Positions 39,867-58,427 of a DNA stretch of 64,000 bases are shown in pieces. The translations under genes were made by a program, and so were the position numbers. The stretch is from NCBI RefSeq assembly GCF_900155685.1, contig NZ_LT732547.1, positions 765,648 through 829,647 of the forward strand, read 5' to 3'. Positions within the stretch are counted from its first letter, which is position 1; every line of letters starts with the position of its first letter. Under the pieces are notes generated by a model. That model had not been told where the DNA came from. It was given only the letters and a program-made list of their open reading frames with translations, and did no database searches. This DNA comes from Paenibacillus bouchesdurhonensis (GTDB taxonomy: Bacteria; Bacillota; Bacilli; Paenibacillales; Paenibacillaceae).

Positions 39867-40961
39867 TTAGTCGGCAAAGGTATAGTTGTTGTTTGTCTTG
39901 TTCAGCAGTGCTTTGAAGCCCGATGTCGCGTAGAGTTTCTGCTCTTTGGAAATGAACAGTGCCTCCGTATCAGGAGTATCCTCGATAAACTTGAGTCCGT
40001 CCTCAATGCCGAGAACGAACAACGTCGTGGAGAGGGCATCCGCATCCGTGGAGTGCTTCGTCACAACGGTAACGCTGCTGATGCCGTTGTCTACCGGATA
40101 ACCCGTTCCGGGATCAAGTATATGCTGATACAACTTGCCGTCTTCAATGAAGAAGCGTTCATATATACCGGAGGTAACGATCGTCTTATCTTCTACCTGA
40201 ATCGTGCCGATCGGATTGCCACGTTCTTTGTCGGGATCCTGAATGCCGATGTTCCATGCTTTTCCGCCCGGCTTTTGGCCCATCGCATAAATATTGCCGC
40301 CAAGATCGATGATCGCGCTGCTGAAGCCCTGCTCCTCCAAATAGTCGTAAATCGCATCTGCTGCATAGCCTTTACCGATTGAACCGAGGTCGATAGCCAT
40401 GCCTTCCTTCTGCAAATAGATTTCCTGCGTGTCCTCATTCAGCTCGATTAGACGATAGTCGCTAAGCGCCTTGGCGGCTTCGATCAGATGGATATCTGGC
40501 ACTTTGGCGCCCTCATGGCCGATATTCCACAGCGTAACTAGATTGCCGATAGCCGGATTGAAATTCCCGTCCGTACGCTTGGCGTAATCTAGAGCTTTAT
40601 CGACCAATTCGAAGGTTTCAGGAGATACCTTTACGGCCGATTTGCCGGAGTTTGCGTTAACCTGATAGATTTCACTGGTCTCCAGCGTACGGCTGATTTT
40701 GCTGTCGATGTCATTAAGCAGGGCTTCGATCTCGTTAAAATGCTGTCTGGTCGCGCGGTTATCATATATTTTCACGCTAACGACGGTATCGAATATAAAG
40801 AATGTTTCCGCCATTGGCTTAACGGTTTCATGCTCATTTGCCGCCTTTTGGTTCGTAGAGACGGAACCGGACAGCGGGCCCGAATTCGTACCGCATCCAG
40901 CCAATACGGCCATGGATAGCAGCAGGATTAACCCGAAAGTGATCAGTTTGTTATGCTTCAT
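39867..40961 (-). CDS. apbE: ApbE lipoprotein, FAD:protein FMN transferase (FmnB)
   Basis: 364 residues with lipobox LAGC (C23), so it sits on the outer face of the membrane. ApbE fold: TFFIFDTVVSVKIYD, the substrate-binding LVTLWNIG, LDLGSIGKGYAAD, IDLGGNIYAMG and the metal-binding AD-ALSTTLFVLG with TSG near the end. It splits FAD and attaches FMN to Thr or Ser of target proteins. The likely target is the FMN-binding lipoprotein PplA at 57528-58427. It is divergent from eetA, with 252 bp between, as part of an extracellular electron transfer locus. Confidence 0.92.
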   Translation of the reverse strand: MKHNKLITFGLILLLSMAVLAGCGTNSGPLSGSVSTNQKAANEHETVKPMAETFFIFDTVVSVKIYDNRATRQHFNEIEALLNDIDSKISRTLETSEIYQVNANSGKSAVKVSPETFELVDKALDYAKRTDGNFNPAIGNLVTLWNIGHEGAKVPDIHLIEAAKALSDYRLIELNEDTQEIYLQKEGMAIDLGSIGKGYAADAIYDYLEEQGFSSAIIDLGGNIYAMGQKPGGKAWNIGIQDPDKERGNPIGTIQVEDKTIVTSGIYERFFIEDGKLYQHILDPGTGYPVDNGISSVTVVTKHSTDADALSTTLFVLGIEDGLKFIEDTPDTEALFISKEQKLYATSGFKALLNKTNNNYTFAD

Positions 40962-41137
40962 TTGTGCCGCCTCATTTCATTTGTTTCTAAATTTATTCAT
41001 TCAAATTTATTGTATCAAGAATAGTAAAATGTTAAAAGTAATATTTTTCACAAAGTAATGATTATCCCATTAAATTCCTTATAAAGTGAGGGTTTTGTGA
41101 CAACCGGAAAAATGAGAGAAATCGCACATGTTAGTCA

Positions 41138-41166
41138 TTGAAGGATTAGAAAACAGGGGTTATAAT
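41138..41166 (+). promoter_or_regulatory. Promoter of the eetA operon
   Basis: TTGAAG (41138-41143), a 17-bp spacer and a perfect TATAAT (41161-41166), 48 bp before the eetA start. Confidence 0.65.
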
Positions 41167-41213
41167 GAGTTCGTCTAGAATTTATACAATTAAAAAATAA
41201 GGGAGTTTTCTCT

Positions 41214-41609
41214 ATGAAACGTGGAGATGTCCTGCTGATCGGCTTGATCGTCGTTATTGCTCTGGCATTTCTTATTCCAAGATGGTTTTTCGAAGATTTA
41301 AGTGAAAAAAATCACAATAATAATCCGCTTGTAGCAAATATCAAAGTAGATGGAAAACTGGTTCGATCCGTGGAGCTTACGGAGGAGGAGCAAATTATTG
41401 AAATTGAAACCGAGGATGGCCTCAACATTTTGAAGGTACATGATTATGGTATAGAGATGATTGAGGCGGACTGTCCTGATCAGTTATGCCTGACCTTTGG
41501 ATTTGTTAAGCGCAATGGCGGGACGATTGTTTGCCTCCCGCACAAAATGATTGTAGAAATTGAAGGAGACTCGGGGGAAGGAGATGATGTTGATGCCATC
41601 GTTAAATAA
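41214..41609 (+). CDS. eetA: NusG domain II-containing membrane-anchored protein, EetA-like
   Basis: 131 residues: one N-terminal helix (GDVLLIGLIVVIALAFLIP), then an extracytoplasmic NusG_II domain (KVDGKLVRSVELTEEEQIIEIE, and the CPDQLCLTFGFVKRNGGTIVCLPHKMIVEI end with its Cys-X4-Cys pattern). In Listeria the EetA/EetB pair is needed for flavin-based extracellular electron transfer; exact chemistry is unknown. ATG after AAGGGAG. Overlaps eetB by 17 bp and leads an operon with the ECF genes. Confidence 0.85.
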   Translation: MKRGDVLLIGLIVVIALAFLIPRWFFEDLSEKNHNNNPLVANIKVDGKLVRSVELTEEEQIIEIETEDGLNILKVHDYGIEMIEADCPDQLCLTFGFVKRNGGTIVCLPHKMIVEIEGDSGEGDDVDAIVK

Positions 41610-42171
41610 GCAGACTACAGCGAAGCCGCTGGGCAGCGAATCGTCCAGCCTGATGTTGAAAAGAACGGTCATCGTCGCTATTTTCGCTGCGGTTGCAGTC
41701 GTGTTAAGCCTGATCGAGTCGCTCATTCCTATTAATATGGGGGTTCCTGGCGCCAAGCTGGGATTGGCAAATATTATGGTGCTGACCTGCCTTTATTTTC
41801 TGCAGGCGAGGGACGCCTTGATGATGGTATTGCTGAAGACGCTGCTTACCGCCTTTATTTTCGGTACGTTCTCAAGCTTTTTGTTCAGTATTATGGGCGC
41901 GCTGTTCAGTTTTGCGGCGATGTGGTTCCTGCTCCTGGTAGGTCGTAAGAGGCTCAGCATGATCGGCATAAGCATCGTAGGGGGGATTGCCCATAATATC
42001 GGGCAGCTTACCGCGGCAGCGCTGTATTTCCTGACAACAAAAATATTTTATTACTTACCGATGCTCCTCATTACAGGGGTATTGACAGGGATTGCGGTGG
42101 GCATTGCGGTTCGATATCTGATACCAGCCCTTTCCCGGCTATCTTTGTTTGAATCGTTTTTGAAGGACTAA
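41593..42171 (+). CDS. eetB: Gx transporter family membrane protein, EetB-like
   Basis: 192 residues with about five to six helices of the Gx/'heptaprenyl diphosphate synthase component I' family, which is really an ECF S-component-like fold: SLIESLIPINMGVPGAKLGLANIMVLTCLYF and GIVGGIAHNIGQLTAAALYF are typical. ATG at 41593 chosen with AAGGAG 9 bp upstream, inside the eetA end. The next genes are two ECF ATPases and EcfT, so it may be the substrate-binding subunit of that transporter. Confidence 0.85.
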   Translation: MPSLNKQTTAKPLGSESSSLMLKRTVIVAIFAAVAVVLSLIESLIPINMGVPGAKLGLANIMVLTCLYFLQARDALMMVLLKTLLTAFIFGTFSSFLFSIMGALFSFAAMWFLLLVGRKRLSMIGISIVGGIAHNIGQLTAAALYFLTTKIFYYLPMLLITGVLTGIAVGIAVRYLIPALSRLSLFESFLKD

Positions 42172-42186
42172 AAAGGAGGTGAGGAG

Positions 42187-43002
42187 ATGGCTGCGGCAGA
42201 ATTCGCCTATGAATTGAAGCAGGTATCCTTTGCTTATGTGCCGGATAATCCGGTTCTGGATGAAGTGACGCTCCGTATTGCTTCAGGAAGCTGGGTCTCA
42301 ATCGTCGGCCCCAACGGCTGCGGCAAATCCACGCTTGCCAAGCTGCTCGGCGGACTGCTTGCTGTGAATAGCGGTACGATTACTGTGGAGGGCCGTGAAT
42401 TGACGCGAGAGTCGGTTTGGGATATTCGCCCTCGGATCGGCATGGTGTTCCAAAACCCGGATAACCAATTTATCGGGGCTACGGTGGAAGAGGACATCGC
42501 TTTTGGGCTGGAGGGACGCTGCCTTGCCCGCGGAGAAATGAGGGAACGGGTGCAGCGCTATGCCGAGAAGCTGGAAATCAGCGACCTGTTATCCAAGCAT
42601 CCATCGGAGCTGTCCGGAGGACAGAAGCAGCGCGTAGCCCTCGCCTCCATCCTGGCAATGGAGCCGGGTATCGTTATTTTCGATGAAGCATCCTCCATGT
42701 TGGATGAGAAAGCACGTGGAGAACTGCTCCAAATATGGCAGGATATGCGGAAGAGCGGGGATTACACGCTCATTTCGATCACGCATGATGCGGAAGAGAT
42801 TATGGCCTCGGACCGGGCAATTATGCTTCGGGGCGGGGCCATTGCAGCCGATAGAGCTCCTTCGGAGCTGTTCGAAGATGAGGAGCTGCTGCAGGCGTGT
42901 CGCTTGATTGCGCCTTATCGGGTGAGGCTTCAGCAGGAACTAAGAAAGCGGGGGATGGATGGAGAAGCTATTCTCCATGGCCGGCATCTAAGGAGGCGGT
43001 GA
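42187..43002 (+). CDS. ecfA1: ECF transporter ATPase EcfA1
   Basis: 271 residues: Walker A GPNGCGKS at 41-48, Q loop MVFQNPDNQF, signature LSGGQKQRV, Walker B IVIFDEASSMLD, H in SITHD. Strong AAGGAGGTGA upstream. Forms with EcfA2 and EcfT the energising module of an ECF vitamin-type importer; in the EET locus this module is linked to flavin export or use. Confidence 0.92.
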   Translation: MAAAEFAYELKQVSFAYVPDNPVLDEVTLRIASGSWVSIVGPNGCGKSTLAKLLGGLLAVNSGTITVEGRELTRESVWDIRPRIGMVFQNPDNQFIGATVEEDIAFGLEGRCLARGEMRERVQRYAEKLEISDLLSKHPSELSGGQKQRVALASILAMEPGIVIFDEASSMLDEKARGELLQIWQDMRKSGDYTLISITHDAEEIMASDRAIMLRGGAIAADRAPSELFEDEELLQACRLIAPYRVRLQQELRKRGMDGEAILHGRHLRRR

Positions 43003-43006
43003 CATT

Positions 43007-43915
43007 ATGGCTATTACATTCGAAGAAGTAAGCTATGCTTACGATGACCGCACCTTATGGAGGAGCGGAGCGCTGGAGGGCGTCAATATGGATATTCGGC
43101 CCGGTACATTTACAGGCATTGCGGGTACGACAGGCTCTGGCAAATCGACGCTTCTTCAGCATTTCAATGGCATCCTGAGGCCGACGGCAGGTCGCGTGCG
43201 GATTTTGGACGTGGTCGTGAATTCCCAGGAAAAAGCACCAAAAATGAGCGAGCTGCGCAGGCGTGTAGGTCTGGTCTTTCAATTTCCCGAACAGCAGTTG
43301 TTCGAAGACACGGTGGAGAAGGATATTTGCTTTGGCCCGCTTAACTTCGGGATGTCCCTAGCGGAAGCGCGGGAGCGGGCAAAGTGGGCGCTATCCCTGT
43401 TGGGGCTGGAAGAGTCGCTTCTTCAAAGGAACCCTTTTCATTTAAGTGGAGGTCAAATGCGCAAGGTGGCCATAGCTTCGGTGTTGGCTATGGATCCAGA
43501 GGTGATTGCCTTGGATGAGCCGACGGCAACCCTCGATCCACAGAGCCGGGCGGAGCTTGCCGCACTGTTATCGAAGCTGCACCGCGAGCAGGGTAAAACG
43601 GTCATCGTCGTGACGCACCGGCTGGAAGAACTGCTGCCCTATGTCGATGGGTGGATTGTCATGAAGAGAGGCCGGAAGCTATTCCAGGGTACGACCGATG
43701 CGCTTGTCCGCGAAGCTGCCTTCCTGGAGCAGGAGGGGCTGGCCCTTCCGGAATGCATCACACTCTGGAATCAGCTTGCCGCCGAGTATGGACTGGAGGC
43801 GGAGAAGCCGTGTTTGACGCCGAATTCTTTAGCTGAGCGGCTAGCGCAGATATACGCAGCTGCAGATACATTAAGAGACGGAGAGGAGAGATCGCCATGC
43901 GGGGAAAGCTTGTGA
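43007..43915 (+). CDS. ecfA2: ECF transporter ATPase EcfA2
   Basis: 302 residues: Walker A GTTGSGKS near 40, Q loop LVFQFPEQQLFEDTV (the FPE variant usual for EcfA2), signature LSGGQMRKV, Walker B VIALDEPTATLD. It starts 4 bp after EcfA1 and overlaps EcfT by 19 bp. The last ~25 residues are an Ala/Glu-rich tail. Confidence 0.92.
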   Translation: MAITFEEVSYAYDDRTLWRSGALEGVNMDIRPGTFTGIAGTTGSGKSTLLQHFNGILRPTAGRVRILDVVVNSQEKAPKMSELRRRVGLVFQFPEQQLFEDTVEKDICFGPLNFGMSLAEARERAKWALSLLGLEESLLQRNPFHLSGGQMRKVAIASVLAMDPEVIALDEPTATLDPQSRAELAALLSKLHREQGKTVIVVTHRLEELLPYVDGWIVMKRGRKLFQGTTDALVREAAFLEQEGLALPECITLWNQLAAEYGLEAEKPCLTPNSLAERLAQIYAAADTLRDGEERSPCGESL

Positions 43916-44700
43916 TCGGTCGGAGCATCGATACCGGATCCTGGATTCATGGCCTCGATCCGCGGGCAAAGCTGACGGCTATGGTGCTGTATCTCATCGC
44001 GATCGTTGCGGTGGGCTCATGGCCTGCGCTTGGTGCCGCCGCGCTCTTTTCGCTCGCTTATATGACGGCAACGAAGATTCCGCTCAAGTATTACGTCAAG
44101 GCGGCGAAGCCTCTCTGGGTATTGATGGTGTTTATCTTTGCCATACAGTGTTTCACTGTGACCGAGGGAAGTGTGCTTTGGCAAATCGGCTCGTGGACGT
44201 TGTATTCCGGAGGCGTGAGTCTTGGACTCATCTCAGCTTCGCGGATGGCATTGCTCGTTTCGTTTACCGCGATTCTTACGTTTACAACGACGCCTGGGCT
44301 GTTGAACCAAGGGATGGCCGGCGTGCTGAAGCCGTTGGAGGCAATTGGAATATCGGCGCAGCGCCTGACATTGATGATGAGCATTGCGCTGCGGTTCATT
44401 CCGACGATTCTCGACGAGTCACAGAAGATTGTGAAGGCCCAGGCTGCCCGGGGCGCTGATTTGCGGGAGCTGCCGTGGAAAGAGAAGGGGAAGATGCTGG
44501 TATCCTTGCTCGTTCCCGTTACGGTAGGAGCTTTTCGCCGGGCCGAAGAATTGGTTCTGTCGATGGAATCGAGAGGTTACCGGATCGGGGCGCCTCGCTC
44601 GGAGTATCATTTGCTCGTATGGAAGAGTCGCGATACCTGGTTCATTTTATCATTTGCTCTTCTGGCGGTTGCCGTGCTGATGTACAGATTTTTCATATAG
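43897..44700 (+). CDS. ecfT: ECF transporter transmembrane protein EcfT
   Basis: 267 residues, about five to six helices. The cytoplasmic coupling helices carry the two XRG motifs: AQAARGAD and SMESRGYR, which dock to the ATPases. HGLDPRAKL at the N-terminus is typical. Last gene of eetA-eetB-ecfA1-ecfA2-ecfT. In Listeria the EcfT-like protein of this locus (FmnA) serves FAD secretion. Confidence 0.92.
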   Translation: MRGKLVIGRSIDTGSWIHGLDPRAKLTAMVLYLIAIVAVGSWPALGAAALFSLAYMTATKIPLKYYVKAAKPLWVLMVFIFAIQCFTVTEGSVLWQIGSWTLYSGGVSLGLISASRMALLVSFTAILTFTTTPGLLNQGMAGVLKPLEAIGISAQRLTLMMSIALRFIPTILDESQKIVKAQAARGADLRELPWKEKGKMLVSLLVPVTVGAFRRAEELVLSMESRGYRIGAPRSEYHLLVWKSRDTWFILSFALLAVAVLMYRFFI

Positions 44701-44869: not shown

Positions 44870-44909
44870 TTAGACAACTTAGTTGCGGGTAGGGAAGGGG
44901 AGTAATACT

Positions 44910-46997: not shown

Positions 46998-47081
46998 ATG
47001 AGCAAGAAAATGAACGAATGAAAGAGTGAAAGAATGAAAGAACGAATGAATGAATGAACGAATGAATGAATGAATGAATGA
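46994..47081 (+). repeat. GAAT/GAAC tetranucleotide repeat tract
   Basis: About 88 bp of (GAAT)n with GAAC and GAAA variants, pure as (GAAT)5 near the end, starting right at the TGA of the U32 gene. A slippage-prone microsatellite. Confidence 0.85.
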
Positions 47082-47163
47082 GGTGATAAACGGACGGATG
47101 GCAACATAAACGATTGGGCGGAAGACACGTGAATAAAGGAATCTTGCCCCGAAGGTGCTGGAA

Positions 47164-47297
47164 TAACTGGATTTCATGCCGTTACTCATGAGAATTTTAA
47201 GCTCTTGAGGGAATTAGCTGGATTCCATGTATATAAATCTGGATATATCTGTTCGCTGTTGCGAGGGGCATAGTTTTAGTTACAAGAAATCCAGTTA
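47164..47297. repeat. Inverted 12-bp pair TAACTGGATTTC / GAAATCCAGTTA
   Basis: The two perfect halves lie at 47164-47175 and 47286-47297, with another CTGGATTCCATG between. It has the look of a dispersed intergenic repeat. No gene in this stretch. Confidence 0.45.
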
Positions 47298-47396
47298 AAA
47301 GGCTGAGTAGCTGCAAACGTATATTTTTAAATACCTAAAATACAGTTAGACAATCTAAAAATCGCATGAATGTCAAAAAAGAGGCGCCAAAGTCAA

Positions 47397-47577
47397 ACTA
47401 AGCACTGAATACTAAACGCTGAACCCAACTACCAACTACCAACTACCAACTACCAAGTGCCAAGTGCCAAGTGCTAAGTGCTAAGTGCTAAGTGTTAAGT
47501 GTTAAGTGCTAAACACTAAATAGCAAACACACGAAACACGAAATACGAAACACCAAACAGCAAACGCTAAACGACAA
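47397..47577 (+). repeat. Heptamer-periodic tract of about 180 bp
   Basis: A 7-bp period is kept over about 25 units while the unit changes by single bases: AACTACC four times from 47427, AAGTGCC twice, AAGTGCT, AAGTGTT, AAACACT, then CGAAACA-type units; weaker units (CTAAACG, CTGAACC) precede it. No spacers or repeats of CRISPR type. The rest of 47298-47396 and 47578-47740 holds no gene. Confidence 0.8.
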
Positions 47578-47740
47578 AAATAAAGACTTTAAATCGGGCT
47601 TTGTGCCACTGTGGAGTCTAGGTGCTGATTCTAAGTAATATCGACAAGGCCTATGTGCCACATACAGTACAAAGCGCAAGTCTATCGTATTAAGAGCTAT
47701 TAAGAGCTAATGTGTATCGCCTAGAAAAGGAGCGGGAACG

Positions 47741-49024
47741 ATGGAGCAATACAGCGGATCAGATCACATACTTCAGAAGCGGCAGCGGTATTTTTACCCG
47801 TGCACGAGTCATTTCTACCGAACTCCGCCGCAAATCGTCAAAGGAGAGATGCAGTACCTGTATGACCACGATAACAGACGCTACACGGACTTTTTCGCAG
47901 GAGTATCCGTCGTTGCTTGTGGTCACTGCAACCCGGAAATCGTCAGACGCACGGAGGAACAGCTGAGAACGCTGCAGCATACCTGTACTGTTTATTTAAC
48001 TCAGCCGAACGTAGATTTGGCGCAGCGGATGGCAGAGGTGCTTCCAGGTGAGCTGAAGCGCACCTTCTTCGTCAATAGCGGTTCCGAGGCCAACGAAGGA
48101 GCTTTGCTGCTGGCTCGTCTGCATACGGGAAAAAAAGGCTTTATCGCGCTGGAGCAAGGACTGCATGGCCGCACGTATTTGACGATGAGCGTGACGGGGC
48201 TGCGCATGTGGCGGACGGATCCGCAGTTGGAGGCGGATCGCGACGTGACGTTCATTCCCCGGCCTTATGAACGGGGGATGAACGCGGAAGAGGCGGCACA
48301 GCGCTCCCTCGCTGCCCTGAAGAAGGTGCTTGAGGAGAAGAGCGGCGACATTGCCGCCATGATTGCTGAGCCGATTCAGGGCAACGCCGGCATTATCGTG
48401 CCAGCTGCGGGGTACTTTGCCGAAGTGAAGGCGCTGCTGGAGCGGCACGGTGTACTCTTTATCGCGGATGAAATCCAGACCGGCTTCGGCCGGACGGGGG
48501 AAATGTTCGCGATAGATCATTACGGCGTGCAGCCGGACATCGTCACGATGGCCAAGGCGCTGGGCAATGGCGTGCCGGTTGCCGCGTTTGCCACGACGGA
48601 CGAGATTGCCGCCAGCTTCAACCGGCCTTCAGCATCCACGTTCGGCGGCAATCCGGTGTCCGCTGTCACCGCTATGGCGGTGCTTGACTACATCGAATCG
48701 CATCAATTGGTGCAGCGCTCTAAGCAGCTTGGAGATGTTCTGCAACAAGGCTTGCGCGTTCTTGCCGCCCGCTTTCCGGAAGCTATTACCGAGGTACGCG
48801 GGGCCGGCCTGATGATCGGTGTCGAGTTGTTCGGGGAGGATACACCGCGGGGTGCGGCATTAGTGGATGATGTGCTTGAACTTATGAAGGACAAAGGATA
48901 CATTATCGGCAAGAACGGCGTGGATCGCAACGTGCTGGCCTTCCAGCCGCCGCTCGTCATCACGGAGGAAGATATCGTCGGCATGCTGGCGGCGCTGGAG
49001 AAAACGCTGAGCTCCCTAACGTGA
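47741..49024 (+). CDS. Class III PLP-dependent aminotransferase
   Basis: 427 residues: FVNSGSEANEGAL (phosphate grip), the LHGRTYLTMS segment, D243 in LFIADEIQTGFGRTG (contacts the PLP ring N) and the Schiff-base K272 in TMAKALGNGVPVAAF. It converts an omega-amine or alanine with glyoxylate or 2-oxoglutarate; AGXT2/4-aminobutyrate type is the nearest group, but the amine donor cannot be read. ATG after AAAGGAGCGGG. It stands alone, after the heptamer tract, within the electron transfer region. Confidence 0.9.
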   Translation: MEQYSGSDHILQKRQRYFYPCTSHFYRTPPQIVKGEMQYLYDHDNRRYTDFFAGVSVVACGHCNPEIVRRTEEQLRTLQHTCTVYLTQPNVDLAQRMAEVLPGELKRTFFVNSGSEANEGALLLARLHTGKKGFIALEQGLHGRTYLTMSVTGLRMWRTDPQLEADRDVTFIPRPYERGMNAEEAAQRSLAALKKVLEEKSGDIAAMIAEPIQGNAGIIVPAAGYFAEVKALLERHGVLFIADEIQTGFGRTGEMFAIDHYGVQPDIVTMAKALGNGVPVAAFATTDEIAASFNRPSASTFGGNPVSAVTAMAVLDYIESHQLVQRSKQLGDVLQQGLRVLAARFPEAITEVRGAGLMIGVELFGEDTPRGAALVDDVLELMKDKGYIIGKNGVDRNVLAFQPPLVITEEDIVGMLAALEKTLSSLT

Positions 49025-49242: not shown

Positions 49243-49292
49243 TCAACTAGTAAGCTTTGCTAGCGTGCACTGCATCAAGGAGTGTGGATTCT

Positions 49293-50165
49293 ATGGAATA
49301 CGCCCGAAAAGTCGGGGCTAAAATCAAGCTGTACAGTGAATTAGTCATGTTCTCCCATACTTTGTTTTCGCTGCCCTTTGCCATTATTTCGATGGTCTGG
49401 GCAGCGAATGGCTTGCCTTCCGCCTATGTGATGATCTGGGGACTGATCGCCCTTGTAGGCGCTCGCAACGGGGCAAACGCCTTTAATCGTATCGTGGATC
49501 GGGTATACGATGCCCAGAATCCGCGTACCGCGCATCGCCATTTGCCGCAAAGGCTGCTGGAGTCGAAGGAAGTGCTGGTGTTCGTGGTCGTCAATTATGG
49601 CATCTTTATCGCTGCCTCAGCGATGCTGAACCCGCTGTGCTTTTTGCTGTCGCCCGTGGCGATCTTCTTGATCTCATCGTACTCTTATACGAAGCGATTT
49701 ACATACTTAAGTCATTTGTATCTAGGGTTTACGATTGCATCCGCGCCGATCGGCGCATGGTTTGCCGTTACGGGGAAATTCGCGTTCACGCCCTTTGTGC
49801 TGGGGACGATCGTAATGCTGTGGATCGCTGGCTTTGACATCATCTATGGCTCACAGGACATCGAATTCGATCGCAGCCACGGGCTATGGTCGATTCCAAG
49901 CTATTTTGGCTTGAAAAACGGCCTGCGCATTGCCGCTGCCCTTCATTTATCGATGGTTATTCTACTGCTTGCGCTCATTCCCATCCGAGATCTCGGCTGG
50001 ATCTATGGCATCGGAATCGGGATAGCTGTTCTTCTTCTGCTCGCTGAGCACCGCATTATTAAGCCGGGCAACCGGCAGGTCATGAAGGTCGCATCTTACA
50101 ATCTGAATCAGGTCATCAGTATGGTTATTTTATTTACTACTTTAATTGATTTCTATATGAAGTAA
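49293..50165 (+). CDS. ubiA: UbiA-family prenyltransferase (DmkA/MqnP-like)
   Basis: 290 residues, eight to nine helices. Both Asp-rich motifs of the UbiA family: NAFNRIVDRVYD (N-x4-D-x3-D) about 62-75 and GSQDIEFDR about 190, which bind Mg-prenyl diphosphate. It joins a polyprenyl chain to an aromatic acid in the membrane. In the EET locus the partner is DmkA, which makes a special demethylmenaquinone; by sequence type it is closer to 4-hydroxybenzoate/futalosine-pathway enzymes, so the product is open. ATG at 49293 after AAGGAGTG. Confidence 0.85.
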   Translation: MEYARKVGAKIKLYSELVMFSHTLFSLPFAIISMVWAANGLPSAYVMIWGLIALVGARNGANAFNRIVDRVYDAQNPRTAHRHLPQRLLESKEVLVFVVVNYGIFIAASAMLNPLCFLLSPVAIFLISSYSYTKRFTYLSHLYLGFTIASAPIGAWFAVTGKFAFTPFVLGTIVMLWIAGFDIIYGSQDIEFDRSHGLWSIPSYFGLKNGLRIAAALHLSMVILLLALIPIRDLGWIYGIGIGIAVLLLLAEHRIIKPGNRQVMKVASYNLNQVISMVILFTTLIDFYMK

Positions 50166-50321: not shown

Positions 50322-51731
50322 TTACTTCTGCACCGTTCTATTATAATTGCCGATTTTATCCGTGATCGCTTTGGCGGCATCGTCCAGCGCCTGCTTGGCA
50401 GGCTTGCTGCCGCCGAGCGCTTCTTCGATCGCGCTCTCCACGATTTGGCGAGCTTCTGGGAATACGCCCATTACGGCACCTTGCGTTGCCAGGCTAGGTT
50501 TGCTGGCATGAAGCTGATCGACCGCCGTTTGAAACTGCGGGTATTTAGCTAAATTATCCTTCACGATTTGCTCGTCGTAAGCCTTCTTCGTAATAGGGAA
50601 ATAGCCGGTGGAAATATGCCATTTTGCTTGTGTTTGCGGCTCGGCGAGGAATTTAATGAACTCCCAGGCCGCCTTTTGCTCCGCTTCTGGCTTGTTATTG
50701 AGAATCCAGAGGCTTGCTCCGCCGATAATGACACCGCCGTCAGGAGTGCCTTCCGGTTTAGGGAGAAACGCGGTGCCGACCTCAAACTTATCGCCAACAC
50801 TGTCTACAATACCCCGCAGTCCCGCCGTGGAGTCCAGCGTCATACTGACCTGTCCCGCTACAAAGGCTTTCTTGGTGTCATCGGTTTTACGGCCAAGATT
50901 GATGGCAGCTTGGCCCTCGACCAGACTCTTCCACCATTCCAGTGTATTAACGCCAGCCTCGGTGTTCACCAGGGACTGGGTTGCCGGTGCGGTGCGGCCG
51001 TTTCCGTTGTCGACATATTCAGCTCCTTGGTTTGCAAAAAACTGCTCCATAAACCAGCCGTAAATGGCGAATGAGGCGGGTGCTCCATTTTTGCTCAGCG
51101 TTTCGGCTGCTCTCTTCAGCTCTTCATATGTTGCTGGAGCCTTGTCGGGATCAAGCCCGGCGGCTTTGAACAAGTCCTTGTTGTAATAGAGAATCGGGTT
51201 CGACGTATTGAAGGGCATGGAGTACTGCTTGCCCTCGAACGTATAGTAATTCATAATATTCTCTTCCAATTGGCTTAAATCATAGCTCTCTTCATCGATG
51301 AACTGCTGTACCGGCGTAATTGCCCCTGAGTCGATCATGAAGCGGGAACCGATTTCGTAGACCTGAATGAGAGACGGGCCGGACTTGGAATCCATGGAAG
51401 CTTTCATTTTATTCAAGCTTTCGTCGTAAGTTCCTTGGAAAATCGCTTCTACCTCCACCTTGTCCTGAGAAGCGTTGAAATCGGCTACGAGTTGATCCGC
51501 GGCTGTACCCAGCTCTCCGCCCATGGAATGCCACCATACGACTTTTGTTTTGTCTGCTGGTGTGGAATTCTCATTCTTCGCATTGCCTGAGGCCGATGAG
51601 CTGCTTGCCGAGGCTTCCCCGTCTGCCGTTGCTCCCGAGCCGCCGCCCGCTGCTCCGCAGGCAGATATGAGCATGGATAGAAGCAAAATCGTAGCGAGCA
51701 AAAATGAATGTTTGAGCTTGAACGGTTTCAT
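50322..51731 (-). CDS. Extracellular solute-binding lipoprotein (UgpB-like)
   Basis: 469 residues: lipobox ISAC with C25, a Gly/Ala/Ser-rich linker of about 35 residues, then the family 1 binding-protein fold with VVWWHSMGGELGTAADQLVADFN, SMPFNTSNPILYYNKDLFKAAGLDPDK (split here by family-typical residues) and VIIGGASLWILNNKPEAEQKAAWEFIKFL. The start and middle match glycerol-3-phosphate/glycerophosphodiester-binding UgpB. Third gene of the minus-strand operon after two permeases; no ATPase is present. Confidence 0.88.
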   Translation of the reverse strand: MKPFKLKHSFLLATILLLSMLISACGAAGGGSGATADGEASASSSSASGNAKNENSTPADKTKVVWWHSMGGELGTAADQLVADFNASQDKVEVEAIFQGTYDESLNKMKASMDSKSGPSLIQVYEIGSRFMIDSGAITPVQQFIDEESYDLSQLEENIMNYYTFEGKQYSMPFNTSNPILYYNKDLFKAAGLDPDKAPATYEELKRAAETLSKNGAPASFAIYGWFMEQFFANQGAEYVDNGNGRTAPATQSLVNTEAGVNTLEWWKSLVEGQAAINLGRKTDDTKKAFVAGQVSMTLDSTAGLRGIVDSVGDKFEVGTAFLPKPEGTPDGGVIIGGASLWILNNKPEAEQKAAWEFIKFLAEPQTQAKWHISTGYFPITKKAYDEQIVKDNLAKYPQFQTAVDQLHASKPSLATQGAVMGVFPEARQIVESAIEEALGGSKPAKQALDDAAKAITDKIGNYNRTVQK

Positions 51732-51874
51732 TTGGTTTCTTCTCTCCCTTTTGATCTAATCATTTATATCATCCGTCGGTGGACGGGAGTTGCTGTTTGC
51801 TGCTGTTTCGGTCATTCTGGGGCCAACGGCTGGGGCCTGCAGGGAGATAGCCCATAAAGCTGTTTCGTAGAGGG

Positions 51875-52702
51875 CTACCCCTTGATTGCTCCCGCAGTTA
51901 ATCCACGCACAAGCTGTTTAAGACCAAGGACGATGAGCACGAGCGAAGGAAGCAGCACGAGTGCGACCCCGGCAAGAACGATGTTCCAGGCGGTCATTTC
52001 CTCGAATTGCAGCATGCTGATTCCAATCTGCACAGTACGCATATTTGCGGTATTTGTAATGAGCAGCGGCCATAAATACATATTCCAGGTGTTAAGGAAC
52101 ACATACACAGCGAGCGTTGCGAGGCCGGGTCTGGCCAGCGGCAGAACGATGCCCGCGAAGTAGCGCATATGCCCGCAGCCGTCCATTCGCGCTGCTTCGA
52201 ACAGCTCCCGGGGCAATTGCAGAAAGAATTGCCGCAGCAGGAATACGCCAAAGGCGGAGGCGAGGAAGGGGAGGACGAGTCCCGGATAGGAGTCGAGCCA
52301 GTTCCATGATTTGATGAGGAGGAAGTTGGGAATCATCGTCACTTCCCATGGAATCATCATCGTTGACAAAAAGACCGCAAACCAGAATGCCTTGCCGCGG
52401 AAAGCAATAAAAGCAAAGGCATACGCCGCCAGGCTCGCCGTCACAAGCTGTCCAATCATAACGAGCGTGGAGACGATGAAGCTGTTAGCGATGAAGCGAA
52501 ACACAGGGATGAGCCGGATAACTGCCTCAAGGCTACCCAAATATAAGCTGGACGGGAGGAGAGCAGGGGGGAACTGGCTCGTCTCTTCCGGCGTCATAAA
52601 TACGGAAAGGAAGGTATAGAGAAGCGGGTAAAGGATGAATAGGGACAATAAGCACAGGACGAAGTATACAGCGCCGTGGCGAATGGGACGGGATAGCGTC
52701 AT
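51875..52702 (-). CDS. ABC transporter permease (UgpE-like)
   Basis: 275 residues, six helices, EAA loop FEAARMDGCGHMRYFAGIVLPLARP and a C-terminus LKQLVRGLTAGAIKG. ATG overlaps the stop of the other permease by 4 bp. Ends 144 bp before the binding-protein gene. Confidence 0.9.
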   Translation of the reverse strand: MTLSRPIRHGAVYFVLCLLSLFILYPLLYTFLSVFMTPEETSQFPPALLPSSLYLGSLEAVIRLIPVFRFIANSFIVSTLVMIGQLVTASLAAYAFAFIAFRGKAFWFAVFLSTMMIPWEVTMIPNFLLIKSWNWLDSYPGLVLPFLASAFGVFLLRQFFLQLPRELFEAARMDGCGHMRYFAGIVLPLARPGLATLAVYVFLNTWNMYLWPLLITNTANMRTVQIGISMLQFEEMTAWNIVLAGVALVLLPSLVLIVLGLKQLVRGLTAGAIKG

Positions 52703-53655
52703 TGATAGTGCACCTTCTTTTCCAAAATGGTGAATTGAATAAGTGTCAAAGTCAGAATGAGCAGAAATAGGACGATGGCCATGGCGCTGCCCGTGCCAAA
52801 TTGGTAATTCACGAAGGCTTCCTTATAAATGGAATAGACGAATACTTCAGTTGAGCCCGCAGGACCGCCTTTGGTTAAAATATGCATTTGCCCAAACGCC
52901 TGAAATGAGCCGATAACAGATACGATAAGCAGGAAGAACAGCGTAGGCGATAGCAGCGGCAGAATGATACGAATAAACGTACGGAAGGGCCCCGCACCGT
53001 CCACTTTGGCACTGTCATACATATCCTCGGGAATTCCTTGCAGGCCGCTCAGCAGCACGATGAAGTTAAATCCGGAGTTCATCCATAGGGTCATGATTGA
53101 TATCGATATGAGCGCCCAGCGCGAATCGGTCAGCCATTGTACGGCGGGAAGCCCCGCCAAGTCCAGAAAATAATTGAACATGCCCAGCGTTGGATGGAAC
53201 AGCATCATCCAGATTACCGCTGACGTACTAACAGAAAGAGCGAGGGGAAGGGAGAAAATAAACTGGAACAGGCGTACCCCTTTTAAACGGGAATGAGCGA
53301 ATGCAGCCATGATCAAGCCGAGAAGGAGCCCGCCAGGAACGGTTAGCAGCACGAATTTTCCAGTCACGGCGAGACTGTTCCAGAACTGGGAGGAGCCTAG
53401 AAGCAGCCTGAAATTGTCCAGCCCGACATAAGCCGCGATATTGCCGCGCGGATCGGTCAGAAAGAAGCTGAGATATACCGATTTGACCAGAGGGTAGAGG
53501 AGGAATAGGCTGAATAGCGTGATAGATGGGGCGAGGAAAAGATAGGCCAGCATATGCTCCTTGAAGCTTGCGCTCAGCCCTTTTCTGGATAAGGGTTTAT
53601 ATGAGGAAGTCGTCATGGCGGCCGGGGACGGCGCGTTTCTGACCGTAGTGTTCAT
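52699..53655 (-). CDS. ABC transporter permease (UgpA-like)
   Basis: 318 residues: a ~30-residue hydrophilic Ser/Thr-rich start, then six helices with the EAA loop YDSAKVDGAGPFRTFIRIILPLLSP. First gene of the UgpA-UgpE-UgpB-like minus-strand operon. ATG after AAGGAGGG. The operon splits the electron transfer genes ubiA and hepT. Confidence 0.9.
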   Translation of the reverse strand: MNTTVRNAPSPAAMTTSSYKPLSRKGLSASFKEHMLAYLFLAPSITLFSLFLLYPLVKSVYLSFFLTDPRGNIAAYVGLDNFRLLLGSSQFWNSLAVTGKFVLLTVPGGLLLGLIMAAFAHSRLKGVRLFQFIFSLPLALSVSTSAVIWMMLFHPTLGMFNYFLDLAGLPAVQWLTDSRWALISISIMTLWMNSGFNFIVLLSGLQGIPEDMYDSAKVDGAGPFRTFIRIILPLLSPTLFFLLIVSVIGSFQAFGQMHILTKGGPAGSTEVFVYSIYKEAFVNYQFGTGSAMAIVLFLLILTLTLIQFTILEKKVHYQ

Positions 53656-53871: not shown

Positions 53872-53899
53872 ATTGGAATGGGATGAATTCTCCAATCGA

Positions 53900-54880
53900 C
53901 TATTTTTCCCGGCCGCTGAAAAACTTAAGAAGTACCTGCAAGTCGCGATGGGCCGGATAATGGCTTAAGCGATCGATAATTTGCTGAGCCTCGTTTAAAT
54001 ATTGCCGGCTTAATGCTTCGGTTCTTTCCAGCGCATCGCTGCTTTGGATCGCTGCGATAACTTCATTGGTATATTCGGCTGGCGTTTGCTCGTTCACCGC
54101 TCTGATCTTAGGAGCGAGCGTGTCATCTTGAAGCGCGAACAAGACGGGAAGCGTTACCTGACCGCTGCGCAAATCGCTGCCGGCAGGCTTGCCCAGCTTC
54201 TCCGAGGATTGGGTAAAGTCTAGGATGTCATCGCGAATTTGAAAGGCCATGCCCAATTTCTCCCCGAAGTCGTATAGCTGACTAGCTGTCTCTTCGTCGG
54301 CTCCCGCCGACAACGCTCCGATACGCAAGCAGGCCGCTATAAGCTGTGCGGTTTTATTTTTGGATTTCTCCAAATATTGCTCGATCGTCACATCATAATC
54401 GAATAGATGGGACAATTGCTGGTATTCGCCCAAACATAATTGCGTTGTCACTAGGGAGGATAGATCGTACACATATCGCTCACGGTCAGCCGAGTAGACA
54501 GAGATTAACTCAATAACCCTGGCTGACATGTAATTGCCGACATGGATGGCGCGATTCACGCCCAGCTTAATGTGCATAGCTTTGTCTCCCCGGCGAACCG
54601 GAGAATCGTCGATGACGTCATCATGGATTAGGGAAGCGGCGTGAATGAATTCAGCGGCCGCAGCCAAGCGCCATACTTTGCGTTCATCGGGAGAAGGGCC
54701 GAAGCGGCTGCCCACGATCACCATTAACGGACGAACCCGTTTCCCTCCTGAGCGGATGAGATCAATGATGCTTCGAGCAAGCTCCGAGGAGCGGGGAACA
54801 TCCTTGTCGAATTTAACCATGTTCTCAATTTCTTTATCTACTGCTCTTAGTGAGATGCCAAGCTGTTCATTCATCTTCAT
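53900..54880 (-). CDS. hepT: Trans-polyprenyl diphosphate synthase (HepT/DmkB-like)
   Basis: 326 residues with both Asp-rich motifs: DDVID at 87-91 (LIHDDVIDDSPVRRG) and DDILD at 217-221, plus GGKRVRP at 45-51. It elongates farnesyl diphosphate with isopentenyl units to give the quinone side chain. ATG after GAGGAGGGG. Directly follows the HepS-like gene (86-bp gap) on the same strand. In Listeria the EET locus has the same enzyme as DmkB. Confidence 0.9.
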   Translation of the reverse strand: MKMNEQLGISLRAVDKEIENMVKFDKDVPRSSELARSIIDLIRSGGKRVRPLMVIVGSRFGPSPDERKVWRLAAAAEFIHAASLIHDDVIDDSPVRRGDKAMHIKLGVNRAIHVGNYMSARVIELISVYSADRERYVYDLSSLVTTQLCLGEYQQLSHLFDYDVTIEQYLEKSKNKTAQLIAACLRIGALSAGADEETASQLYDFGEKLGMAFQIRDDILDFTQSSEKLGKPAGSDLRSGQVTLPVLFALQDDTLAPKIRAVNEQTPAEYTNEVIAAIQSSDALERTEALSRQYLNEAQQIIDRLSHYPAHRDLQVLLKFFSGREK

Positions 54881-54966
54881 GATGTTCCCCTCCTCGAAAT
54901 GATGTACAAGTGTTCATCCAAATTGTCCATCTATTTGATGTACAAGCGATTGCCTAATGTGTTCCG

Positions 54967-55419: not shown

Positions 55420-55513
55420 AAGGAACACTCCTTAACAAGCAAGTAGGTTTGCAGGGGATTTCGCACCGATATCGGCGGTTTAATATCCACTAACGACAGT
55501 CTTTGTTAAAAAT

Positions 55514-55546
55514 CAGAGTAATGTGCAGCAGCTGCACATTACTCTG
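55514..55546 (-). terminator. Terminator after ndh2
   Basis: A perfect 15-bp stem CAGAGTAATGTGCAG / CTGCACATTACTCTG with loop CAG; the minus strand continues ATTTTTAAC. Confidence 0.85.
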
Positions 55547-55585
55547 GGTTAAAGGGGGTCAAAAACAATTGTGCAGTTGTTATGC

Positions 55586-57466
55586 TTAATCCGTATAGAG
55601 GTACCATCTGCGAACAAGCGGTATTCTCTTCCATTGCTTCTTAAGCCAAGGCAGTACGTAGTAATCGAGACCAAACATGCTGCCCGATCCGCCGATCAGT
55701 GCTACGCCAGCCGTCATATACCAGAGCATTTCGCTCGATGCCATGCTGGAGGACCAGATCATAATGCCAAGTGCAACGGTGACGATCGAGGATACTGCTG
55801 TGAACAGGCCGGCAATAAGCAGGATACCGATAATGATTTCTGCAAATACCATCCCGGTCTGGAACACGGAAGCAAGCCCGGTATATCCGCCATCGGAAGT
55901 GTAGAAGAAGATATCCATGAACCAGTTCACTGTATTCGTAATGAAGCCAGGCACCGGCAGCGCCGTAACAGCGGTTGATGCACTCTGTACTGCGGATGCA
56001 GCCGCTTGAGCGTCGACAGTCGTCGTAACAGCCTCCGCAGCCTCGCTTGCTGCTGATATCGCATCACCAGCATGAGGCGATGCAGGGATCAGGAAGATGT
56101 CTGAAGGATTCTTAAGCACCTTAGGCAGCTTATCAATACCTTCCTGCAACCATTTGTAGCCTACGAATACCCGTAACGGTACAAGCCAGAAGTTAGGCGA
56201 GCGTTTAGCGAAATGACCGCCAACAAAGCTTCTGTTATTGTTCACGTGGAAGAACTCATGCATCATGTAAGTCCACACTTTGTTGAAGCCTGCCACCGTG
56301 AACAGATAATACATATTGATCAAATGCTTACTGAACATCGCGAGAAATCCGCTGATCATGAACATTTTATTCGGCAGTCCCACATTAGCTACGCCATATC
56401 GGCTGCCTATGCAAACCATAGTACCGTGGAAGCCTGGTTTATAAGACTTCTTCGGTTTGCCTTTGACATCCGCATGGATGTTATGGGCAATGAGCGGGCC
56501 AGCTTGCTCGGCGTTCTCAACCATTTGCGGAACAGGACGGGTCTCACCTTCCGGGATGTAGTAAATATTGTCGCCAACGATGTATACATCCTCGTGATCC
56601 ACGCTTTGCAGCTTATCGTTGGTAACGATCCGCTTGCGGCCTTCTTGCTGAACGTCCAGCTTGCCTACGAGATCGGAGCCCTCAACACCGGCTGTCCAGA
56701 CGATCGTAGCAGCTTCGAGCTCTTTCTCCCCAAGCAGAACGCTTGACTTCGTTACCCCGGTAATTTTGGCGTTTGTCACGATTTCGACGTTCATTTTGTT
56801 CAGGCGTTTGACCGCCTTATCAATCAGTTTATCAGGCAGGATCGGCAAAATTTTCGGTGCCATATCCGCTACGACGAGGCGAACCTCACTTGGATCGATG
56901 TAGAATTCCTTGCACAGCTCGTCGCGGTATTCCGCCAGCTCGCCAATGAGCTCCACGCCGGTAAAGCCTGCTCCGACAACAACGAAGGATAATTTCTGCT
57001 TGCGAATGGCTGGATCCGTTTCTTTGGCAGCCTCGCTGAACATACGGCGAACCTGTATCTTCAATTTGACGGCATCTTCGTATGACCATAAGGTCATTGC
57101 ATGCTCCTCGGCACCTGGAATGCCGAAGAAAGTTGGTTTACAGCCGGTACCGATGACTAGGTAATCGTACTTGTAAGTGTTTTTCTTGGAGCGAAGCTCC
57201 TTGGATTTAAAATCAATGTTGTCGATGTAGTCCAGTACAACATCCACTTTTTGTCCTGCAAAAATCTTCTTTAATTCGATTTGAATTGATTCCTCGGGTG
57301 CCCGGTTTGCCGCGACTTCATGCAGCTCAGTCAGCAGCGTATGATACGGGTTCTTGTCAATCAGCTGGATTTGAACGTCATTGTCTTTTTTGAACAATTT
57401 GGCCAGGTGCTTCGACGTGACGACACCACCGTAACCGCCGCCAAGAACGACTATTTTCTTCAACAT
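55586..57466 (-). CDS. ndh2: Type II NADH dehydrogenase fused to a DoxX-like membrane domain (Ndh2)
   Basis: 626 residues. Residues 1-400: two Rossmann folds with VVLGGGYGGVVTSKHL (FAD) and the second FVVVGAGFTGVELIGELAEY (NADH), and the late YIVGDNIYYIPEG. Residues about 430-626: a membrane domain with WLVPLRVFVGYKWLQEGIDKLPK and later helices like DoxX, with an Ala/Val-rich extracytoplasmic loop. The same fused form is known for Ndh2 of the Listeria electron transfer locus. It passes electrons from NADH to a quinone. ATG at 57466 after AGAAGG. PplA lies just upstream in the same direction. Confidence 0.9.
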   Translation of the reverse strand: MLKKIVVLGGGYGGVVTSKHLAKLFKKDNDVQIQLIDKNPYHTLLTELHEVAANRAPEESIQIELKKIFAGQKVDVVLDYIDNIDFKSKELRSKKNTYKYDYLVIGTGCKPTFFGIPGAEEHAMTLWSYEDAVKLKIQVRRMFSEAAKETDPAIRKQKLSFVVVGAGFTGVELIGELAEYRDELCKEFYIDPSEVRLVVADMAPKILPILPDKLIDKAVKRLNKMNVEIVTNAKITGVTKSSVLLGEKELEAATIVWTAGVEGSDLVGKLDVQQEGRKRIVTNDKLQSVDHEDVYIVGDNIYYIPEGETRPVPQMVENAEQAGPLIAHNIHADVKGKPKKSYKPGFHGTMVCIGSRYGVANVGLPNKMFMISGFLAMFSKHLINMYYLFTVAGFNKVWTYMMHEFFHVNNNRSFVGGHFAKRSPNFWLVPLRVFVGYKWLQEGIDKLPKVLKNPSDIFLIPASPHAGDAISAASEAAEAVTTTVDAQAAASAVQSASTAVTALPVPGFITNTVNWFMDIFFYTSDGGYTGLASVFQTGMVFAEIIIGILLIAGLFTAVSSIVTVALGIMIWSSSMASSEMLWYMTAGVALIGGSGSMFGLDYYVLPWLKKQWKRIPLVRRWYLYTD

Positions 57467-57527
57467 ATTCACCTTCTTACTTTAGGCTGGTATTCATGGA
57501 GATGAGTTACTAGATTAATAATGACTA

Positions 57528-58427
57528 TTATTTAGCTTGTTCCAGTGCTTTTGCAGCGAGATCGTAGTACGATTTCAGACTGATGGATACGCCGGAGATC
57601 GCGTCTGTTTTACCTTCATCGTTGAAGCTTACTGCAGCCGGATCCTGCTTCTCGAGCAAATATTGCTCAGCTATAGCAGCTTGCTCATGCCATTCTGCTT
57701 GTGCTCCGCCTTTTTCAACCATGCCGTATTTGCCGTCAATGGAGTTGAGTTTCTTGTCTTCGCCAGCTTCGTTTACGCCGCTAAAGTTCACTCTTACGAT
57801 GTTGCCTGCGGATATAATGACATCAGCTGTTTCTTTCCAGCCGGATCCCTCTGCGAACTTGTCGCCTTCGGCATGGTAGCTGCCGTCTTTGTAAGGACCT
57901 GGCTCGATTGGGCCAGCAGCGAGTGCTTGGTCGACAAGGTCGAACAAATCGTTAACATGTATGGATACGCCGGAGATTGCGTCAGTATTGCCTTCTGCAT
58001 CAAGGGTTACAGCTTTCGTATCTTGTTTCTCAATGAGGAAAGCGATCGCTTTAGCAGCTTGCTCATGCCATTCTGCTTGCGCGTTGCCTTTTTCTTTCAT
58101 GCCGTATTTGCCTTGCTCGGAATAAGTGACTTTGTCTACCGGTACGGTTGCGTTAGTACCGTTCCATTCCACATCGGCAATTTTGCCGCCTTCAACCTGC
58201 AGCTTTACGAAATATTGCCAGCCGCTTTTCGGATCTTCCTTACCTAGGGCAAAGTATAGACCGTCCTGGAAATTGCCTTCTGCAGCAGGAGCATTATTAG
58301 CGGAGTTGTTGGCGCTATTCTCGGTAGCTGGAGCGTTATTAGCTGGTTCCGCCGTATTTTTTGCTCCGCACCCTGCGAGAAGTCCTAGCAGCAGTGCGCT
58401 GCATAGAATAATGGATGCTTTTTTCAT
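57528..58427 (-). CDS. pplA: FMN-binding lipoprotein PplA with two flavinylation sites
   Basis: 299 residues: lipobox LAGC (C20), an Asn/Ala-rich linker to about 50, then two homologous FMN_bind domains of ~115 residues (55-170 and 178-297). Each has YGM, AEWHEQAA and the acceptor motif DAISGVS at 149-155 and 275-281; ApbE would attach FMN to S155 and S281. PplA carries electrons from the membrane quinone to outside acceptors. It is first in the minus-strand pplA-ndh2 unit. ATG with GGAGG upstream. Confidence 0.92.
   Translation of the reverse strand: MKKASIILCSALLLGLLAGCGAKNTAEPANNAPATENSANNSANNAPAAEGNFQDGLYFALGKEDPKSGWQYFVKLQVEGGKIADVEWNGTNATVPVDKVTYSEQGKYGMKEKGNAQAEWHEQAAKAIAFLIEKQDTKAVTLDAEGNTDAISGVSIHVNDLFDLVDQALAAGPIEPGPYKDGSYHAEGDKFAEGSGWKETADVIISAGNIVRVNFSGVNEAGEDKKLNSIDGKYGMVEKGGAQAEWHEQAAIAEQYLLEKQDPAAVSFNDEGKTDAISGVSISLKSYYDLAAKALEQAK

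Follow-up and report, generated by a model that had tools for sequence, protein, structure and literature searches.

Are the genes that stand between the recognizable parts of a flavin-based extracellular electron transfer (EET) locus insertions, or do they belong to the system? This question is raised by a stretch of the Paenibacillus bouchesdurhonensis genome (5.82 Mb in 7 contigs); the window that we analysed is 64,000 nt long and covers forward-strand positions 765648–829647 of contig NZ_LT732547.1 (C6) in assembly GCF_900155685.1. A preliminary description of the window, made from the sequence alone, had seen in it the full Listeria set of EET genes, broken into blocks by a U32 protein, a class III aminotransferase dependent on pyridoxal phosphate (PLP), hereafter AT3, and an UgpA-E-B-like transporter. 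It left a choice between a locus opened by insertions and extra genes that take part, for instance in redox-linked metabolism of glycerol-type substrates. We have found that U32 and AT3 are standing companions of EET and not stray insertions, while the transporter is a clade-limited insertion. We consider it moderately probable that U32, AT3 and a UbiA prenyltransferase (together, the trio) form, within a Listeria-type EET locus, a dedicated EET quinone branch on the futalosine side of menaquinone synthesis.

The placement of the genes was compared among relatives with EET-type Ndh2, an NADH:quinone oxidoreductase, as the anchor. A full-length Ndh2 of this type was found in 35 of 40 genomes sampled from the genus, the other five having short Ndh paralogues only; all 34 Ndh2-positive relatives were retrieved, and exclusion of two short contigs (L017 and L026) left 32 loci. 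U32, AT3 and ubiA are present downstream of ecfT in all 32. The comparison of synteny across Paenibacillus, proposed in the preliminary description, thus gave a divided answer, with U32 and AT3 in place in 32/32 loci and the transporter in 6/32. In four relatives (L034–L037) the U32 and AT3 reading frames overlap by 4 bp and therefore translational coupling of the two genes is suggested. As a separate observation, the gap between U32 and AT3 in the window (46998–47740) is A+T-rich (39% GC) and has many short tandem repeats (AATG ×18, CCAACTA, AAGTGCT), and in L009, a near relative, there is a repeat expansion within the U32 reading frame.

Among 157 Paenibacillaceae genomes (E-value thresholds 1e-140 for Ndh2, 1e-90 for U32 and 1e-120 for AT3), EET-type Ndh2 was found in 63, U32 in 57 and AT3 in 57. 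The U32 and AT3 genome sets are identical and lie wholly inside the 63 Ndh2-positive genomes; none of the 94 Ndh2-negative genomes has U32 or AT3 at threshold (Fisher p 2e-36, uncorrected for shared ancestry). Genera g1, g6, g8 and g10 each contain both positive and negative genomes. The U32/AT3 pair is missing from six Ndh2-positive genomes (G049, G055, G056, G088, G106 and G175); in G049 and G088 the contig stops near the anchor, and still U32 was not found anywhere in either genome. In a class sample of 299 genomes (Ndh2 threshold 1e-110), Ndh2 was found in 20 and U32 in 13, all 13 inside those 20. Seven distant Ndh2 genomes from Bacilli (38–40% identical) have no U32 at threshold, and a MenA-like gene is located near apbE in all seven.

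Divergence of each protein was compared with that of Ndh2 over 33 loci; U32 (r 0.93), AT3 (0.88) and UbiA (0.94) diverge at about the pace of the core proteins EetB (0.92) and EcfT (0.93). A few relatives have open reading frame (ORF) ends that overrun their own stop, following the alignment, and such rows entered this comparison minus stop signs; alignment A1 is without L010, L013, L020, L063 and L074, and the end of L055 was trimmed by 6 bases. The trio moves as a unit, since in genome G115 it is located on a separate contig, apart from that genome's own EET locus.

A scan of named genomes with the U32 alignment gave 196 relatives, and the counts that follow are for the best 80 of these 196. 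They represent Paenibacillus, Fontibacillus, Saccharibacillus, Brevibacillus, Clostridium ganghwense and Oceanirhabdus seepicola, along with an entry labelled Bacillus sp. and a Paenibacillaceae metagenome-assembled genome (MAG); 78 belong to Bacilli, almost all of them to Paenibacillus and close genera, and two to Clostridia. AT3 is downstream of U32, on the same strand and at most 1012 bp away, in 79 of the 80 loci, the exception (L133) being a contig end. A ubiA gene is in the stretch in 78 loci (all but L133 and L174, a 3.5-kb contig) and within 4 kb downstream in 76, the two ubiA-bearing exceptions being the Clostridia. At least one of ecfT, eetB, ndh2 and hepT is found within 10 kb in 76 loci. 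In the scanned collection, beyond which closer records may exist, the nearest U32 proteins among named species are those of Paenibacillus ihumii (86% identity) and P. woosongensis (79%); that of the unclassified MAG is 80% identical.

The two clostridial loci (L209 and L210) are rearranged, with ubiX, ubiA, ubiD, hepT and ndh2 on one strand and apbE, an SsuA/NMT1-like lipoprotein gene, U32 and AT3 on the other; of the two, L209 alone yielded EetA and EetB, and L210 alone PplA. Brevibacillus laterosporus (locus L205) encodes a UbiD between AT3 and UbiA, and this UbiD is 100% identical to that of L102. The scores of the two clostridial UbiDs and the L102 UbiD (665.4, 658.6 and 657.6 bits) exceed the cut-off (495.9) of TIGR03701, the model for the decarboxylase of menaquinone biosynthesis. 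The U32–AT3 pair is therefore kept across two families of Bacilli, rearranged clostridial loci and a separate trio, and we suggest the trio genes as markers for this EET variant. The clostridial lipoprotein gene, between apbE and U32 (L209:8803-9768 and L210:8732-9691), and a taurine-type ABC ATPase gene after ubiX in L210 (L210:199-951) could possibly serve import of a quinone precursor.

Table 1. The EET locus of P. bouchesdurhonensis and the genes between its parts, in window positions
Feature	Position	Strand	Support
ApbE/FmnB-like FAD:protein FMN transferase, lipoprotein	39867..40961	-	Pfam ApbE 305.8 bits
EetA, NusG_II domain	41214..41609	+	PF07009 102.6 bits
EetB, ECF S-component-like FAD exporter subunit	41560..42171	+	PF07456 149.1 bits
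EcfA1 ATPase	42187..43002	+	ABC_tran 119.7 bits
EcfA2 ATPase	43007..43915	+	ABC_tran 103 bits
EcfT/FmnA transmembrane subunit (CbiQ/EcfT)	43897..44700	+	PF02361 123.3 bits
U32 protein, 704 aa	44883..46997	+	PF01136 300.1 bits
AT3, class III PLP aminotransferase	47741..49024	+	PF00202 (Aminotran_3) 359.6 bits
UbiA prenyltransferase, MqnP-like	49257..50165	+	UbiA 179.8 bits; TIGR01475 276.4 bits
Sugar-type ABC importer: substrate-binding protein (50322-51731), permeases (51875-52702, 52699-53655)	50322..53655	-	Pfam; permeases BPD_transp_1
HepT-like polyprenyl diphosphate synthase large subunit	53900..54880	-	PF00348 226.7 bits
Small protein in HepS position, 153 aa	54967..55428	-	Assigned by place only
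EET-type Ndh2, NADH:quinone oxidoreductase with fused C-terminal membrane domain	55586..57472	-	Pyr_redox_2 133.7 bits; DoxD 23.5 bits
PplA-like lipoprotein, two FMN_bind-like repeats	57528..58427	-	FMN_bind 25.1 bits; 2kzx E 3.6e-32

All genes of Table 1 are intact ORFs, and each except one is supported by Pfam or NCBIfam. A reverse-strand apbE is followed by a forward block (eetA, eetB, ecfA1, ecfA2, ecfT, U32, AT3, ubiA) and then by a reverse block of the transporter genes (one for the substrate-binding protein, two for permeases), hepT, the small ‘hepS’, ndh2 and pplA. A membrane-fused Ndh2 and genes of electron export stand at one locus with ApbE/FmnB, EetA, EetB and the T component of the energy-coupling factor (ECF) type, EcfT/FmnA; we assign the locus to Listeria-type flavin-based EET, and its gene set is far beyond chance because the arrangement recurs in dozens of relatives. 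The preliminary description had named most of these genes correctly: ApbE/FmnB (the single match in its own genome), EetA, EetB, for which a role in export of flavin adenine dinucleotide (FAD) is described in passages of PMC9973259, EcfA1-A2-T, the membrane-fused Ndh2, whose C-terminal part we find to be DoxD-like, and the U32, aminotransferase and transporter genes between them. Its PplA with two flavin mononucleotide (FMN) groups agrees with two flavinylation-type DAISGVS sites, one per repeat; the protein misses the NCBIfam PplA model NF041941 (53.7 bits against a cut-off of 325), and we therefore call it PplA-like. Among 82 PplA relatives, 69 have two matches to the flavinylation-type motif and 13 have one, 11 of these 13 being short forms of 164–200 aa. 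The pair of HepS and HepT was upheld for HepT, which is 34% identical to the genome's main HepT; for the protein in the HepS position neither Pfam nor NCBIfam gave a match, and its identity to the main HepS-position protein of the genome is just 22% over 58 residues. Likeness to Listeria held for the EET assignment and failed for UbiA, which is of another type (see below).

Past the 3′ end of apbE there is an Rfam match to the small RNA BsrC (39552–39639, forward strand, 76.2 bits against 38). After pplA (58824–63194) come genes for an HD-GYP protein, a histidine kinase, RidA and a TspO-like protein; in most loci from genera g8 and g14, homologues of the kinase, RidA and TspO genes are likewise found past pplA.

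What quinone could the trio serve? In the family sample (threshold 1e-60 for MenA, MenD and MqnC), MenD was found in one genome (G056) and MqnC in the other 156; menaquinone of Paenibacillaceae is made via the futalosine route. The menaquinone cluster of the host encodes, in this order, a HepS-position protein (no family match), MenG, UbiA, UbiX, an MqnA/D-family protein (PF02621, 214.9 bits) and HepT (430.8 bits, slightly below the HepT cut-off). From these distributions and the host's own cluster it follows, at the level of predicted genes, that 1,4-dihydroxy-2-naphthoate (DHNA) is not made in the host by the known route. With no MenD, the host cannot form the EET quinone via DmkA from DHNA of its own making. 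The precursor of demethylmenaquinone (DMK) in Listeria and lactic acid bacteria is DHNA, as stated in parts of PMC10746273 and PMC8837199, and one passage of PMC9094743 calls the Listeria EET quinone an ‘unidentified demethylmenaquinone’.

The UbiA of the EET locus exceeds the cut-off of TIGR01475, a UbiA-like polyprenyltransferase subfamily (276.4 against 180.8), and falls below that of an NCBIfam MqnP model (266.5 against 430), which the UbiA of the menaquinone cluster misses too (328.5). In BLAST the two UbiA proteins are 44% identical, and the linked UbiA has no significant similarity to MenA types. Judged by these comparisons and a tree it is MqnP-like and not MenA/DmkA-like.

The reading that we favour, a futalosine-side quinone branch, is based on gene content, linkage, co-occurrence, motifs and the MenD-free route. 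By homology with described systems, the membrane-fused Ndh2 would oxidise NADH, and electrons would pass through a locus-specific prenylated quinone to the FMN groups of PplA and on to outside acceptors; ApbE would attach FMN, with EetB and EcfT/A1/A2 exporting the FAD that ApbE needs. The MqnP-like UbiA would build the EET quinone from futalosine-side naphthoate, with a prenyl chain from HepT and ‘HepS’ and decarboxylation by the general UbiD/UbiX. The U32 Fe-S protein and AT3 may tailor or supply the quinone head group without O2; that the two act on the EET quinone, and the order of the steps, we infer. In bacteria that have no MenD, the trio, whose association with EET is constant from Paenibacillus to Clostridia, probably makes or modifies the EET quinone.

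The U32 protein has the motif C186-x6-C193-x15-C209-x3-C213, of the [4Fe-4S] type, and CX6CX15CX3C is kept in all 59 U32 orthologues with >80% coverage. According to sections of PMC6747719, CX6CX15CX3/4C is the pattern of Fe-S U32 proteins, and UbiU-UbiV, themselves U32 proteins, take part in the hydroxylation of ubiquinone without O2. In a tree of 24 rows, where the third U32 of the genome was taken only up to a run of N in L097, the EET U32 proteins make one clade (17/17 rows, support 100/100) apart from E. coli UbiU, UbiV, TrhP and RlhA and from the three other U32 proteins of the host. The window U32 falls below the NCBIfam cut-offs for UbiU (139.5 against 440) and UbiV (62.4 against 275). 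Two barrel domains are predicted for it (about residues 10–286 and 386–650), with the four cysteines in the first; the model is of moderate quality and weakest near the cysteines (predicted local distance difference test score <50 at residues 183–238). As modelled, the protein resembles a two-subunit U32 enzyme condensed into one chain, and by analogy we propose that it is an O2-independent hydroxylase. In AT3 the lysine of the AKALG motif, which we take to be the PLP lysine of the family, is kept in all 68 orthologues; the nearest solved relatives of AT3 are a phospho-lyase, γ-aminobutyrate and acetylornithine aminotransferases and a racemase.

A bolder form of the proposal, which we regard as rather unlikely, is that the trio enzymatically produces an aminonaphthoquinone, a new respiratory quinone for EET. 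U32 would hydroxylate the naphthoquinol ring without O2, AT3 would transaminate the keto tautomer of the hydroxyquinone to an amino-naphthoquinone, UbiA would prenylate the product and UbiD/UbiX would decarboxylate it. If true, we would know of no earlier case in which a PLP aminotransferase aminates a quinone (RquA uses S-adenosylmethionine), and the product would be a rhodoquinone-like, low-potential analogue of DMK tuned to reduce the flavins of PplA. An amino group in place of methoxy in ubiquinone lowers the potential by ∼160 mV, as given in a passage of PMC13386864, and in the relevant part of PMC10746273 the aminonaphthoquinone 2-amino-3-carboxy-1,4-naphthoquinone (ACNQ) gave the highest ferrihydrite reduction among the quinones tried in Lactiplantibacillus plantarum.

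Several observations weigh against a futalosine-side quinone branch. The co-occurrence counts are not phylogenetically independent, and in many genomes top first-look candidates alone were scored, so that absence means ‘not found at threshold’. In four of the 80 named loci (L187, L199, L201 and L206) no EET gene lies within 10 kb of the trio; for L206 (in G115) only is EET known elsewhere in the genome. In G175 (L049), Ndh2, ubiA and the flavin genes are kept, and no U32, AT3 or in-stretch pplA was found; UbiA therefore does not always need U32 and AT3 alongside. A further consideration comes from an unlinked MenA/DmkA-like prenyltransferase of the host (C7:407729-408679; L098:7730-8683), which passes two DHNA polyprenyltransferase models and is 39–43% identical to the MenA-like proteins encoded near apbE in the distant loci. 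This gene was found in 50 of the 157 family genomes, all inside the 63 EET genomes, and MenD was found in none of the 50; since it is found only in EET genomes, the EET quinone may be DMK made from scavenged DHNA, with the trio doing something else. Next to ecfT in three other Paenibacillaceae EET loci (L091, L094 and L095) there are MenA-like genes of a different subfamily (57–67% mutual identity, ∼22% to the unlinked MenA; the L095 row in the UbiA/MenA tree is an over-long ORF of 717 aa), and only one of these three genomes has MenD. Finally, U32 relatives also hydroxylate tRNA and rRNA.

A MenA-like gene and the trio do not share a stretch in any of 95 stretches (MenA in 10, trio in 69), and in L091 and L094 MenA occupies the trio slot between ecfT and hepT. 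A plain replacement of DmkA by the trio was nevertheless rejected as a general explanation, because the unlinked MenA is present in 49 of the 57 trio genomes. The unlinked MenA is possibly a DHNA scavenger. In our reading, drawn by analogy, these bacteria may have a pair of prenyltransferases for EET, with MenA using scavenged DHNA, as it does in Lactiplantibacillus, and the linked UbiA using futalosine-side naphthoate.

If U32 and AT3 do not act on a quinone, they could serve anaerobic or EET-mode growth in another way, by RNA hydroxylation or by amino-acid or redox balancing, and be merely co-regulated with EET; we give this a limited chance. The known RNA hydroxylases TrhP and RlhA of E. 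coli are both 28% identical to the window U32, whose best NCBIfam model is TrhP, though far under the cut-off (164.8 against 534), and AT3 stays below the cut-off of each of the 25 class III aminotransferase models listed from NCBIfam. However, the host already has two TrhP-like genes (their products score 157.7 and 338.4 and also miss the cut-off of 534) and another U32, and the trio contains and travels with a prenyltransferase, with UbiD and UbiX genes adjoining in both Clostridia.

Action on the flavin side, with U32 and AT3 processing or modifying flavin, ApbE or PplA, is improbable. Its appeal is positional, as the pair is downstream of the FAD-exporter genes and one gene away from apbE in both Clostridia. 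Against this, the lone trio of G115 has a prenyltransferase and not flavin genes, and L035 and L037 retain U32 and AT3, no pplA having been found in their stretches. We also know of no U32 protein or class III aminotransferase that acts on flavin. L035, L037 and L049 are possible natural reduced forms of the locus.

It is quite improbable that U32 and AT3 are operon passengers retained by chance in one lineage. With 78 of the 80 named loci from Bacilli, shared descent does explain much of the synteny; yet the pair is kept in two families of Bacilli, in the rearranged clostridial locus and in the separate trio, and it diverges at the pace of core genes, whereas the adjacent ubiA–hepT junction varies from 66 to 8142 bp (median 1406 over 69 loci). 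Constant placement across relatives and restriction to Ndh2-positive genomes are the grounds on which insertion was rejected for U32 and AT3.

The transporter presents the opposite case. The six genus loci that have it are the closest relatives, and at >60% identity it was found in two of the 80 named loci. In L014 the same gap is occupied by SNF2-type helicase genes, and in L023 by genes for a phosphotransferase system and a glycosidase of family 1. Wherever a locus has both ubiA and hepT (69/69), the two genes are convergent; given this and the variable gap with its differing cargo, the two-block convergent layout is normal for such loci and the transporter is cargo carried at a junction that tolerates it, outside the EET set. 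The blocks seen in the preliminary description are the usual layout; the idea of insertion applies to the transporter, and that of participation to U32 and AT3, which in the family sample occur only with EET-type Ndh2. Coupling of EET to uptake or metabolism of glycerol-type substrates, suggested by a substrate-binding protein and two permeases of sugar-importer type inside the locus, is very improbable and was rejected, as the transporter is missing from 26 of the 32 genus loci, unrelated cargo occupies the same junction elsewhere, and nothing was found in its support.

A locus of this kind is known, and its presence in Paenibacillus is already in print. With the flavin-based EET genes of Listeria monocytogenes and lactic acid bacteria, as listed in part of PMC10373932, the window shares ndh2, pplA, eetA, eetB, fmnB/apbE, fmnA/ecfT and a dmkB/hepT-like gene. 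It differs in its MqnP-like prenyltransferase (the MenA-like gene being unlinked), in the addition of U32 and AT3, in having ecfA1 and ecfA2 inside, and in halves that face each other. A close described counterpart is the EET operon of Paenibacillus sp. Cedars, which according to the main text of PMC10373932 has seven of the eight Listeria genes, with ecfA1-A2-T inside and dmkA elsewhere, in an organism that reduces ferrihydrite and magnetite; the window, too, has ecfA1-A2-T inside the locus and MenA/dmkA unlinked. That main text has no mention of U32 or UbiA, and ‘aminotransferase’ occurs in it among figure-legend abbreviations, not tied to the operon. More generally, no link of U32 and AT3 with EET was found in open-licence main-text literature, the scope of the search, and no U32 in the main text of PMC8238504.

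UbiU-UbiV offers the nearest parallel for U32: the U32 domain, the four-cysteine Fe-S motif and a quinone prenyltransferase neighbour are shared, as are, in Clostridia, UbiD and UbiX neighbours. UbiU-UbiV is a heterodimer, whereas the window U32 is one chain of 704 aa with two barrels, 21–29% identical and with the four-cysteine motif in the N-terminal half only. The late futalosine steps (MqnP, MqnL and MqnM) are the parallel for the prenyltransferase, given its identity to the cluster UbiA and the UbiDs of the B. laterosporus and clostridial loci that pass the menaquinone decarboxylase model; the window UbiA differs in being an additional, EET-linked copy beside U32 and AT3. We know of no U32 protein or aminotransferase in the known futalosine route. 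For the proposed aminonaphthoquinone the parallel is ACNQ of Shewanella, an amino-naphthoquinone that supports EET and, as described in a portion of PMC6687433, forms non-enzymatically. ACNQ arises from DHNA with no enzyme, whereas the window has an aminotransferase gene fixed in the EET locus of a host without MenD.

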